From Branchiostoma floridae (Eukaryota > Chordata > Leptocardii > Amphioxiformes > Branchiostomatidae): a stretch of 64,000 bases of DNA. A program made the position numbers and the translations under genes. The DNA is taken from the NCBI RefSeq assembly GCF_000003815.2, contig NC_049989.1:7404195-7468194 (forward strand), given 5' to 3'. The notes beneath the pieces were generated by a model. It made no database searches and was not told where the DNA came from. It worked only from the letters and a program-made list of their open reading frames with translations. This document shows positions 42,001 to 48,000 of the stretch, piece by piece (the stretch's first letter is position 1; each line of letters starts with the position of its first letter).

Positions 42001-45000
42001 AGGAAAGTGTATCTTTAATAGTTAGTAACGTAACAAAAATTATCTTCACTCTCCCTTTCACTCGGCACAAGAACAAGACGGGTGTTGGGCTTGAAAAGCA
42101 AGTGTGACCTTGTCCAGAAGCTGGTCGGACTGACTGGCTTCCCTGCTGAGGAGTTCAGGGGTCGTAGGATAATTACTTATTACAAGGAGGTTAAAAAATC
42201 ATTGCTTAGTATAAACATTACGTTTGTTATTAAGGGCGTAGGTAGATTGAAATGTCTCGCTCAGAAGTTGATCCCTGGCCAAATTCACCCAAATGATCAC
42301 CCTGTTGATGGGTTGAATTTTCATCTTTACAGTACCCAGGCTCAACAGGAGGAGGAACAGAGGAGAAAGGACCAGCGGGGGTTGGAGAAGAAATATCTCC
42401 GTCGCCAGGCAACCAAGACGCACCACAAAGATGAAGAAATGTCAGGTTAGAACTGCAAATGTACTACTAGTATTAGTGTTTTGTTTGAAATATTAAATAA
42501 CAATTGGTTACTTCAGCACATACCCCTGAGCTTTCTGTTGATAATACATTCAGACTGAGATACGTAGAGATAGTGAACACACTTGCATAAACCGGACATT
42601 TTCTTGATGCTTACGGATTATGCTACATTGCTGGGTTCTGCTTCGTTCAATGTATTATTATATACACTGTCATAATATCATGTTCTCATTCAGTTTGTGA
42701 CCTTCATTTCACTATGATCCATGTATTGTATGCTGAATAGCATAATTTCACATACTACATGTATTAACTTCTGTCTCCCTCTCCATCAGAGGAACCCGTA
42801 CATCAGCTCAGAATACCTGTACCTAAGCCAGAAGTATATGTTGGCAAGTCCAAACTTTTGTACACATCATTTCAACTTGTTCTAGTTGTTTCTTCCTTTC
42901 CTCTGCTTCACCTCTTATTGTTATCCTAGTAAGATTGTCATCACTATCATTCTTTGTTCTCAGCAGACAAAAAGGGCCACACCCACGAGTTATACATTGG
43001 CAAGTTACATATTCATGTACATGTACATGTATTTACATTACAGCATGTAGGATTTTTTTTGGCCTCACGTACAAGTATAATACTAGTATGAAGTCAAGCA
43101 AGTTGAAAACAATTGCTTATTGTTTGTATCTGAAGAAAAGTTTCTTTGGCTGCTTCCTGTAGATTAAAGGGAAGGAAACTTAAGGTTCTTTTTACACATC
43201 CCTGTAAAGACTTTTTAAGCAGTTGATTAGCTTAAGATCACTCCCATTGACAAAAAATCATAAAACAGTCTTCCCTTGACCCTTCGCCTTGTTGTGAAAG
43301 CCTCTTTTTAATAAAATAAGGCATGTTATAAAGAATGTATGTAGAGTTTAGTAATTAAACTCTGTCATTGGGTCCATGTTGTATATCAGCTGCTAAATTT
43401 ATAAAATATGCTTTCATTTACTTTGATGATAATCTTTGTTCCTCTATTACATCTGAAGATGAAGAGAAGAAGGTGCACGATGTCTACATTGGCAAGCACA
43501 TTATTTTTGTTTTGTATTTTTCATTCTTTCTGCCAAGCTGCAACATCGTCTGAAATTAAAAAGACTTTTCAACTTTTTCATTTTAACCTCTTCATTTCTT
43601 CACTTTGTTTATCACATTTAGTAGTTTTGTATCCCTCTGATATCCACATCATTCACTCATTCACAAACTAGATGATGACCACAAGGTCCACCATGATGTG
43701 GTTTCTATTGTGGACGTTCCCATCAAGAAGAAAGGCCAGGAAGACAAAGACTCTGGCAAAGGGTCCAGTATGTCATCTCAAGATCTCCTCAGTTCTCCAA
43801 GTATAGTTCTTGCTGCATACATGTCAGTCACTTGTAGAATTGTATGTCTTATGTTTCAGCTGATTTTTCAACTAATCATGTGTTCTGTGCCTTGTCTTAA
43901 CTGTTATGCACTTTCACATGTATCTGTACAGTATCCAGGACTTCTGATCATGATTGAGCACACGTCAGAGGCGGCGGCAGGAAATTTCGTCTGGGGGGGC
44001 GAACTTTTACTGACAGAATTTTGTGGCACACGCTTACGTAGCGCCGAAGGCGCTACCTGTCGCGCCGGAGGCGCGACCACCCTAGGGGGGTCCGGGGGAA
44101 TGCTCCCCCGGGAAAATTTGAAATCTAGACCCTCTAAAACGGCATTTCATGCGTTTTGACGGGCAGATTTTGCTGCCAGACTAAGCTAAGTTTGATGGCA
44201 ATTCTGTTAGAAAGACACATGGTTTTAGCGAGGACGATGCCCCCAAAATATTTTCACGATTTCGAGTGCCGAAGGTGCGAGCTGTTGCAAGGTTGGTCTT
44301 TGGAAATTTCGAAATCTGCACCCTCTGAAACGACATTTTCTGTATTTTGAGGGACAAGTTTTGCTTGCAGACTATGCTAAATCTTATGCCATTTTTGTCA
44401 AAGAAAAAGATCTTTGAGGGCGATGACCTAAGCTACCACGCACAAATTTTCACCATGTCGTTGTGAGCGCCGGAGGCGTAAGTCATCGCTAGGGAGGTCC
44501 GGAGAAAATTTTAAAATCTTGACCGTCTGAAACGTCATTTCCTGAATTTCAGTGGCACATTCTGCTTATAAACTAAGCTAAGTATGATAGTACAATTTCT
44601 ATTGGTTTAAAAGATTTTTCAGAGCAACGCTTCCGCAACATATTGTCCTGCGTCGAAGACGCAGTCGTCACAAGGGAGGTCTGGCGAAATTTTGAAATCG
44701 GGACTCTCTGAAACGCCATTTCTTGCATCTTCAGGGGTAAACTATGCTGTTAGACTAGCTTGATTTTATGAAATTTCCATCATCAAAAAAATACACAAGG
44801 TTTCAGCTTGATTTTTGGGGGGGGCGACGCCCCCCCAACATATTTTCCGGGGGGGCAGCCGCCCCCCCTGCCCCCCCGGTGCCGCCGCCACTGCACGTCA
44901 ATGCTGCCAGTCACACTTCACAATTCAGCAGCCAACTGCCTGAAATTCTTAAGGATTACATATTTCATCATCAGCATTTCATCATCATAAGCATCATTTT

Positions 45001-48000
45001 GTGGTCATAAAGCACCAACTACAAATCATATAATTTCTTGTGAAAGACATCTATATTTAAATGATGGTAAAAAGACTGTCTAACTTGTTTCTGTTACAGT
45101 TGTTGATTATTGTGACACTGACTGTCAAATCTGATGTCTTTTGAATGTAGACAAGTAGCAGTAGTATGCTTGTCACTATACAACACTGCATTTAAGTCTT
45201 CTGTTTAACTATAGTGTCTGTTGTATTATCGTATGACATTGTTGTCTACAATGAGTCTTGATATAAAGCTGTGTCTTTTTCAGTAATGTCTTGCTGGCAG
45301 TAACGTTATGTGTGTCAGTTTCATCTAATGATAACATTTACATTGTACATGTATATGTTTTGATGTTGTTTTTTATTTCCTATAACAGGATAAGAGTGTG
45401 TAGTCTTTCATTGGGCAATTTGTTGGAGATGTTGTCATATGTTCCTCACAGTGTTCCTTTGCTTCCTTGTTTTTTTTTATCAGCAAATTTTTTATCAAGA
45501 AAATAGCTTCTACTTAAGTCTGAAATTCATTTCTCATCCTCAGCTAACAATTCTAGGCCATTTGTAGGAAAGAATTTAACAATTCCTGTTTCTCAATGTA
45601 AAACCGGTGTATAGTAAGTACAAGACAGCTTGCAATGTTGAGACATGCACATGATGCTGATAGTTCATGTAGTCTTTCACTTCCTTTCCTCCATGCTTTC
45701 CTCTACTCTCCCACGCTACACTCTTCTGTCCACCCTCCACCGCTGTAGCTACTGAAGGTAATTGACTCTAAACCTATTGGTATCCCTTTTCAAATGTGGT
45801 TTTGGCAATAATACTTTACAAATCAAAACTAAATATTAATCTTCTTGACTTTAAAAATTTCACCCAGTGACAACATATGTGCTAATTTTTCCTGATATGT
45901 TTTGTTCACAATCTCGAAATTGTGTCTAACCCAACACAATTATAAATAAATCTTATTCTTTTACTATGACTTAACATAATTACACTTACAGCAAAACATT
46001 CACTAATATCGCAGCAATTAAGTCTGCTTTGTCTTGCAAATTCTCACTGAGGCTAACACTGCACACCTGATTATAGCTGCTGCAAAATTAGTGGTCCGTT
46101 TTACTGGACAAAGATTAATTTGCTTCTAGTATGTTCCAGTCGTCACAGAAATGGAAAGTTCTTTGAAACAGCCTGAAGGAGAAATGGCCTTTCACTCTGG
46201 GACACTGGGGTCATACAGTCATTGTATCATATCATGACATTATATCTAATTCATTCTATCCATATCATATAACACCAACATTCAATTTTATGTATTGATG
46301 TTCTGTCTTTTGTTCACAAGTTACTTCTTTTATGTGTGATGTTGAGTGGTACTTAGTATTGTATAATATGTTATTTGTGGTGTGTCATTCACTATAATCA
46401 CAGTTAAGTGTGCTATGTGGTGCATTGCATGATCAACAGCCTAGAAGACTTAGTATGCATTTCATACAGCTTCAAATATCAAATAAAATGTTTTATCATG
46501 TGTAACCCTAGTTCACCTTTATCCGTTGGGTAACCTATATCCGTTGCCTTTAAAAACGGTATTTGGGGATGTCACGTCGACTTGACGTTGTTTTCAAATT
46601 ACAATATTTTCAGTACATTGCAGTTTAAAACTACCACCTGTCGGCTTGATGTGCCTAAATACCCTGTTTTGAAAAAAACTGATAAAGGTTCCTCCCGCAG
46701 ATAAAGGTGAACTAGCGTTTAATCTGTCTGTAACAGTAAGATATTTATGATGTAAGTTTTTTTTTGTCAGATAGTAATGGAAACAAAGCCAATGTCAATT
46801 TCCGTACATAGAATACAAATGAACCCCTGGGAACACACCCCACCCCCACCCTTTCATTTCAGATGAAGCTGAGAAGAAGAAGATGGCAAAGGACCTGATG
46901 TCCGTACCCATGTCTGCCTACATGACTTACCTGCTGGCAGGCGGGGTGCTGTGGGTGGTCATCCTTCTACTGGTCAGCATTCTCAAGCACGGGGTGATGG
47001 TGGCAGGGGACTTCTGGCTTGCGGACTGGTCATCACTCTGGATTGATGGAACGGTAGGTACAATATCGAGTAGCCTTTTGGTCAAGCTGGATACATTACA
47101 CAATATACAAGCATAGAAGTCTCAGTCAGCTGCTGATACAATTACTATGATTTAGGGTTTACTGCTGATTTATTACTGATATTGCATTTCATTCAAAAGT
47201 TGTGTGTGGGAGGGGGGTGGCTTAGATGGTATTAGAGGTGCTATGAGTGCTACACTACCAACTTGAGTGGTAAAGAAAGTCCTAAAGCCAAAGGTTATAT
47301 TGCAGAAGATGTTGATTGGATATTACCACTGTAGTATGACAAACTATAGCAATATAAGACCATCACCTATCCAACATAAACTAGAGCAATAGGCCTGTTT
47401 AATTTTGCTTGACTTCTCAGGCTCTGACGGAGGACGAGTGGCATTACTACATCTACGGCTACGTTGGGCTGTCCTTGTCGGGAATCTTCATGGCATTTCT
47501 GGCGTCCATCATCATCGTGCTGACAGGAGTCCAGGCCGGGAAGAACCTGCACAAGAAGATGCTGAGGAGAATCATTCTCGCTCCAATGAGGTACAAGGAT
47601 ATGTTAATTTGTATGAGTGTTTACCCAGGATTGGTCTACATGTATCAGTATTCTTATTTGACATAGCCTTAGTTACTGTTGGTCATTATTCCAAAATGAT
47701 GCTAATGATATTATGATTATAATAATTCTAGAATACCGTCACACTTTTGCTATCAATAAGTGATGATGATACTTAGTAAAAGGTTTTGATGGTTAATAAC
47801 AACAAAAATTCAGAGGAAAACAATTCTAGTATTATTGTAAGCCTAAGTGATTTGATTGCTGAATAAATGTGTTTATTAGACTCACCAGGTTCATGGATTT
47901 TGAGATGCTGGAAAACTGTATGGTTTATAACATGCACTGAAACCATCACCATCACTTTGATGAATTCTGACAATTTTTCCATGATAGTAATTCCCAATCA

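Follow-up and report, generated by a model that had tools for sequence, protein, structure and literature searches.

Does the linker between the first nucleotide-binding domain (NBD1) and the second transmembrane domain (TMD2) of an amphioxus sulfonylurea receptor (SUR) carry optional exons, and what would they do to the channel? The question was raised by a preliminary description of a 64,000-nt stretch of Branchiostoma floridae DNA (assembly GCF_000003815.2, contig NC_049989.1, positions 7,404,195 to 7,468,194 of the forward strand; hereafter the window, whose numbering is used throughout), in which four in-frame cassette exons, here called A to D, were proposed in the SUR linker intron at 42446-46862. 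Our tentative answer, held at close to an even chance, is that A, B and C (D and a further 9-nt candidate less surely) are real duplicated optional exons, which would lengthen the tether behind an element resembling the R helix of SUR2 and so alter gating. The preliminary description had overlooked the GC donors of three of these exons, the likeness among A-C, a tandem acceptor of B, the 9-nt candidate and, immediately upstream, the match to the R helix.

Assignment of the gene and its linker exons

The SUR gene was placed on the + strand at approximately 30083-53881 of the window by spliced alignment, using as query an approximate human SUR1 protein sequence; exon matches span residues 5 to 1580 of this sequence. 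TMD0-L0 is followed by TMD1, NBD1, TMD2 and NBD2 in that order and the best solved-structure matches are SUR, which identifies the gene as a SUR of the ABCC8/ABCC9 type. Among the PDB matches listed, NBD1 plus linker matched SUR2B with an E of 7e-85, and the linker region ranked SUR2B (E 5.3e-27) and SUR1 (from 3.8e-20) before other ABC proteins. The linker intron is flanked by two constitutive exons on the + strand, one at 42333..42445 (entered in phase 2 and left in phase 1, with the beginning of the linker between NBD1 and TMD2; spliced alignment and PDB match to SUR2B and SUR1) and one at 46863..47053 (phase 1 acceptor, linker end and TMD2 start; SUR match), and the earlier placement of the array in the NBD1-TMD2 linker of a SUR gene is borne out by these alignments. 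Exon statistics given below were taken from 37 of the 48 model exons, after 11 small exons that are likely gap fillers (2, 8, 16-18, 21 and 28-32) had been dropped.

Candidate exons of the linker intron

Candidate exons A to D all lie on the + strand with phase 1 on both sides. Exon A (54 nt, 42790..42843) has an acceptor scoring 10.7 and ends in TTG before a GC donor, GCAAGT; exon B (36 nt, 42964..42999) ends in the same TTG and GCAAGT, and its acceptor (9.6/9.4) is a tandem CAGCAG whose second AG, at 42967, would shorten it to 33 nt. Exon C (33 nt, 43459..43491) combines an acceptor of 4.1 with TTG before the GC donor GCAAGC, and exon D (96 nt, 43672..43767) a weak acceptor (1.9) with a GT donor (4.6). 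The introns between A, B, C and D measure 120, 459 and 180 nt. Coordinates, lengths and phases were all reproduced as first described and no in-frame stop was found; the accompanying statement that the splice signals are good holds for the A and B acceptors, and fails for the A-C donors, which are GC, and for the C and D acceptors, which are weak.

The donors of A, B and C each have G at -1, GC at +1/+2 and AAG at +3 to +5, the form taken by GC-AG introns. Constitutive donors are GT in 36 of 36 confident cases, a count that is not fully independent, as GC was penalised by the aligner. GT dinucleotides occur shortly 3' of the donors in A and B, where splicing would disrupt the frame; for C, no GT stands within a few bases.

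The frame stays open in all 16 subsets of A-D, and in 48 of 48 combinations once the alternative acceptor of B and a 9-nt candidate are included; these exons thus have the symmetric phase and the open frame in every combination that cassette use demands. The number of up to 16 linker variants in the preliminary description is arithmetic on these open subsets. The 9-nt candidate microexon (45749..45757, +, phase 1-1, encoding A/T-T-E; acceptor 6.8, donor 8.0) came from the spliced aligner, which used four other small filler pieces there, and is treated here as a lead; microexon-like sites of its quality number 7 in 182,500 background bases, or 0.17 per 4.4 kb. The peptides of A, B and C each terminate in [DE][VL]Y[IV], possibly a tyrosine-based signal. 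A stretch at 45544-45606 was considered as a further exon and dropped, its coding score being intron-like.

Chance expectation for candidate exons with GC donors

GC-donor candidates were counted using thresholds loose enough to admit C (acceptor >=4, GC donor >=1.6, phase-1 open, 24-60 nt). Counted by acceptor, 9 were found in 197,275 background bases (approximately 0.2 per 4.4 kb) as against 6 in this 4.4-kb intron, figures that are not clean probabilities since the thresholds were fixed after the candidates had been seen. The background counts were 0 for the reverse strand of the window (64,000), 2 in 29,000, 0 in 9,500 and 0 in 14,775 (other SUR introns), with 1 and 6 on the two strands of 40,000 bases of contig C17, which holds a second SUR-like gene of the same genome. 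The six acceptors in the linker intron are those of A, B (two) and C, one at 43044 that is unlike the others, and one at 44017 inside a repeat. Counted by donor, the background holds 8 candidates in 182,500 bases with a maximum of 1 per 702 bp, and A, B, C and the donor after 43097 all fall within 702 bp. When the highest-scoring acceptor is taken from the 150 nt preceding each of the three exon ends, A, B and C all come out at a multiple of 3 (3 of 3); the expectation for an open frame is 0.32-0.50 in each case. We think that A-C, judged by these signals, exceed chance.

Likeness among the candidate exons

A 12-nt end, TA[CT][AG]TTGGCAAG, is common to exons A, B and C. In the window and 40 kb of C17, both searched on the two strands (208 kb in all), it occurs at 3 places, all of them these exon ends; the string was derived from the candidates themselves. 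In the 12 nt that precede the last base of the exon, the A/B/C pairs agree at 8, 8 and 9 positions (mean 8.3), a value reached by none of the 7,140 triples of the 36 constitutive exon ends (best mean 7.7; one of the 36, that of exon 33, was taken at the aligner's 47080 and not at the corrected 47053). Pairwise likeness was then assessed with 2,000 letter shuffles per pair, the first six intron bases included. This gave p values of 0.0005 for B-C (the floor of 2,000 shuffles; the alignment is gapped and covers most of their length), 0.003 for A-B, 0.032 for A-C, 0.014 for C-D, 0.10 for B-D and 0.82 for A-D, and, against the constitutive exon at 46863, of 0.096 (A), 0.81 (B), 0.017 (C) and 0.063 (D). 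Peptide likeness gave 0.005 for B-C and 0.053-0.63 for the other five pairs. Homology between the introns that separate the exons was at most weak in 10 comparisons (p 0.027-0.87).

Likeness beyond chance, as expected of tandem duplicates, is accordingly found for A-C and not for D. We read A-C as old exon duplicates, the exon parts still recognisable and the introns diverged; one explanation for the preserved exon parts could be selection on the peptide. Coding character was scored with a table of 1,479 constitutive codons. The scores of B, C and D are equalled or exceeded by 2.8%, 1.7% and 3.5% of open intronic stretches, respectively, and that of B (4.0) lies within 1 SD of 36-nt constitutive windows (6.3, SD 4.1). 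What backs D is its codons together with a weak likeness to C.

The R-helix-like stretch and the length of the linker

Directly upstream of the array, residues encoded at 42382..42414 (+) were aligned by HMMER with the R helix of SUR2 in SUR2B chain 7mit_E (counterpart LERKTLRRAMY), and the match was assessed by a shuffle test. The HMMER alignment is ungapped through LERKTLRR, up to LRRQA/LRRAM. In the ungapped match to SUR2, 11 of 31 residues are identical (shuffle p 5e-5), and the local match has a p of 0.0007 to SUR2 versus 0.64 to the SUR1 linker. Of the eight contact residues named for the R helix, E929, K931, L933, R934 and R935 are identical and R930 is K. The 6-residue insertion that SUR1 has between T932 and L933 was not found in the window gene. 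When the C17 linker was compared with the SUR2 R-helix region, the match (p 0.019) covered an acidic stretch and did not include LRR. The SUR2-like match in the window gene suggests that the R helix is old and was lost in SUR1 along with the 6-residue insertion.

In published work on SUR2A, the R helix (924-942) is described as wedging between the NBDs and inhibiting the receptor, and a 6-residue SUR1-like insertion in the linker as relieving this autoinhibition and raising Mg-nucleotide activation (PMC10276813), a direct precedent for the linker. The effect on gating first proposed for the array is plausible. The SUR2 ED domain is also characterised as autoinhibitory in a further study (PMC9700523). 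The exon array enters 10 residues past the R-helix match; the HMMER alignment, which is of low confidence here, puts this point inside the SUR2 ED domain (947-961). Between LRR and the beginning of TMD2 there are 27 residues in the core form (7 acidic, 6 basic) and 37 in SUR2 (16 acidic, 5 basic); with C or B included, the length becomes 38-39 residues.

Proposed mechanism

A-C would have arisen by duplication within the linker intron. GC donors pair less well with U1 and phase 1-1 keeps the frame, so that A-C would enter only part of the transcripts. An included exon would add 11-32 residues, or 3 in the case of the 9-nt candidate, to the stretch joining the R-helix-like element to TMD2, close to where SUR2 has its ED domain; with a longer tether, the grip of the R helix and linker on NBD separation would change, and thereby the Mg-nucleotide sensitivity of the channel. 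Splicing, optional inclusion and the effect on gating are what we infer for these exons from their sequence. Charge variation, to which the preliminary description had also appealed, proved small (acidic/basic residues 3/2 in A, 2/2 in B, 4/2 in C and 8/6 in D); the cassettes add little net charge, and length is therefore a better guess for the effect. A bolder version, which we regard as speculative and improbable, is that the run of GC donors, under shared weak-donor regulation, forms a combinatorial code for tether length behind an ancestral R helix, tuning KATP autoinhibition by tissue in a pre-vertebrate chordate, and that vertebrates subsequently fixed two of its states as the separate genes SUR1 and SUR2.

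Assessment of alternative explanations

A number of observations weigh against optional duplicated exons. By codons A is not coding-like, as its score is equalled or exceeded by 33% of the open stretches in introns and its next frame (3.6) outscores the phase-1 frame (-5.7). For D, the next frame (6.7) comes near the phase-1 frame (7.8), which itself lies approximately 1.5 SD under 96-nt constitutive windows (18.4, SD 7.1). The minimum among 36 constitutive acceptors is 5.2, and both C and D fall below it. GT candidates of D's quality number 3.0 in this intron, whereas six stretches of background hold 3.6-7.6 of them per 4.4 kb; D's splice signals are thus at background level and, taken alone, give it no support. 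Its donor also has three acceptors upstream that outscore D's own, none of them yielding a multiple of 3. The likeness of C to D may reflect Lys/Glu composition, since C matches the constitutive exon at 46863 about equally. The shared end is absent from two GC candidates (donors after 43097 and 44070), which probably arose by chance. At the corresponding position of its linker, the second SUR-like gene (minus strand of C17) has an intron of phase 1, approximately 640 nt by eye, in which no GC-donor candidate was found, only two overlapping weak GT ones. Within the R-helix-like stretch, M937 is A here, and Y938 would be T if the alignment were ungapped, but HMMER places a gap there; moreover, the published SUR2A insertion lies inside the helix and breaks it, whereas the array inserts past the match. 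Finally, human GC-AG introns are linked mainly to alternative 5' splice sites, not to skipped exons, in a study of such introns (PMC7242645).

The alternative that survives best, although we consider it unlikely, is that the candidates are relics, once duplicated and used, since decayed (GC from GT, weakened C and D acceptors), and now skipped in all transcripts. Decay of this kind would fit the GC donors on all of A-C, the C and D acceptors under the constitutive minimum, the codons of A, and the C17 linker intron without a GC-donor counterpart. It sits poorly with frames that are open and lengths that are multiples of 3 in every copy, with GCAAG preserved in all three while the intervening introns are at most weakly alike, and with A and B acceptors that outscore 29 and 23 of the 36 constitutive ones, respectively.

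Less probable again is that the exons are real and constitutive, always all included to give a single long linker and no isoforms. Divisibility by 3 is no distinction, as 16 of the 37 constitutive exons share it, and a GC donor alone does not imply optional use, GC-AG introns making up approximately 0.8-1.3% of introns in published surveys. Constitutive inclusion would nevertheless have to accommodate four consecutive phase 1-1 exons, three with GC donors and one (D) with a very weak acceptor, and a core form that retains a linker alignable with SUR2 when all of them are left out.

That the candidates are splice-like open stretches selected by eye, and so due to chance, is a shade more improbable than constitutive use. 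Selection after the data had been seen, the intron-like codons of A and the equal abundance of D-like GT candidates elsewhere all lean this way, and are opposed by the shared 12-nt end with its 3 places in 208 kb, all in this intron, by a GC-candidate density approximately 30 times background, and by the likeness of B to C. Mutually exclusive use of one look-alike exon, a special case of optional use, is the least probable, for although A-C and their ends are alike and symmetric phases allow it, phase 1-1 equally allows none or several, introns of 120, 459 and 180 nt do not force exclusion, and no mechanism for it was seen.

Other features of the window and related genes

A repeat copy of approximately 930 bp lies inside the linker intron (43966..44893, +), with at least 39 further places in the genome; these 39 were found among 40 scored of 2666 first-look candidates, the near full-length ones at 89-97% identity. 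Its ends are G/C-rich and seemingly near-inverted, and the family is probably a non-autonomous DNA transposon. In NBD1 of the window SUR (39761-40768), Walker A reads GPHDSGKTS and the signature LTPGQ, the C17 gene having GSVGSGKSS and LSGGQ. Upstream of the SUR gene, endonuclease and reverse transcriptase domains are encoded in an open frame of 1030 aa (15482-18571, +), a retroelement of non-LTR type. Further frames include an LHFPL-like one at 4029-4769 (-; E 2.2e-17) and one with an RGS domain at 8105-8728 (+; E 5.7e-5, right at the cut-off).

The C17 SUR-like gene contains three tandem copies of a TMD2 exon (QKISPSIMSV...TPWF; reverse strand 30801-31275 of the extracted C17 sequence). Copies one and two reach a stop (PVI*) before any donor scoring above 4 and are probably recent partial duplicates; the third alone is complete. 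Two inward rectifier (Kir) genes lie on the same contig as the SUR gene, approximately 1.65 Mb from it (contig C11, 5782287-5790427, minus strand), 6 kb apart and each with a single open frame. Their N-termini are Kir6-like and they are 50 and 45% identical to an approximate human Kir6.2 sequence; their best PDB matches are Kir3.2 and Kir2.1, a ranking by which their assignment to Kir6 is not clear. On contig C13 there is a third Kir locus, nearest to Kir2.2.

Comparison with known systems

To our knowledge, vertebrate SUR splicing is known elsewhere than in this linker, as the preliminary description had, broadly rightly, stated, and we know of no look-alike exon array in it. Splicing of sur2 exon 17 was reportedly found by Chutkow in 1999 to regulate nucleotide sensitivity. 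Splicing of vertebrate SUR2 (the SUR2A/B last exon and exon 17) resembles our proposal in reportedly altering the nucleotide response of a SUR, and differs in affecting other places of the protein. Alternative exons of Drosophila dMRP are duplicates within one gene stretch that replace part of a domain one for one.

The R helix of SUR2 (ABCC9) is the closest counterpart in place, since it lies in the same linker and its LERKTLRR core matches the window gene without gaps; the published length change there is a fixed difference between SUR1 and SUR2 and not a product of splicing. Tandem duplicated exon substitution (PMC9741552) likewise involves exon duplicates in one gene stretch; it replaces part of a domain one for one, whereas short, strongly diverged optional linker spacers are proposed here. 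No earlier report of a SUR linker exon array, and none on an amphioxus or Branchiostoma sulfonylurea receptor (ABCC8, ABCC9), was found in the literature searched, for the array mostly by title and abstract opening. If spliced as proposed, the NBD1-TMD2 linker of SUR would have been a tunable autoinhibitory element before vertebrates, by way of splicing and not of separate genes, and three successive GC donors would offer a compact natural case for studies of weak-donor regulation. In let-2 of C. elegans a GC donor stands beside a regulated exon (cited in PMC7242645), as it would beside A, B and C here, which follow one another in a single linker. Optional duplicated exons as a kind, and splicing of SUR, are both known, and the array would be a variant of them, set apart by its linker site and its run of GC donors.

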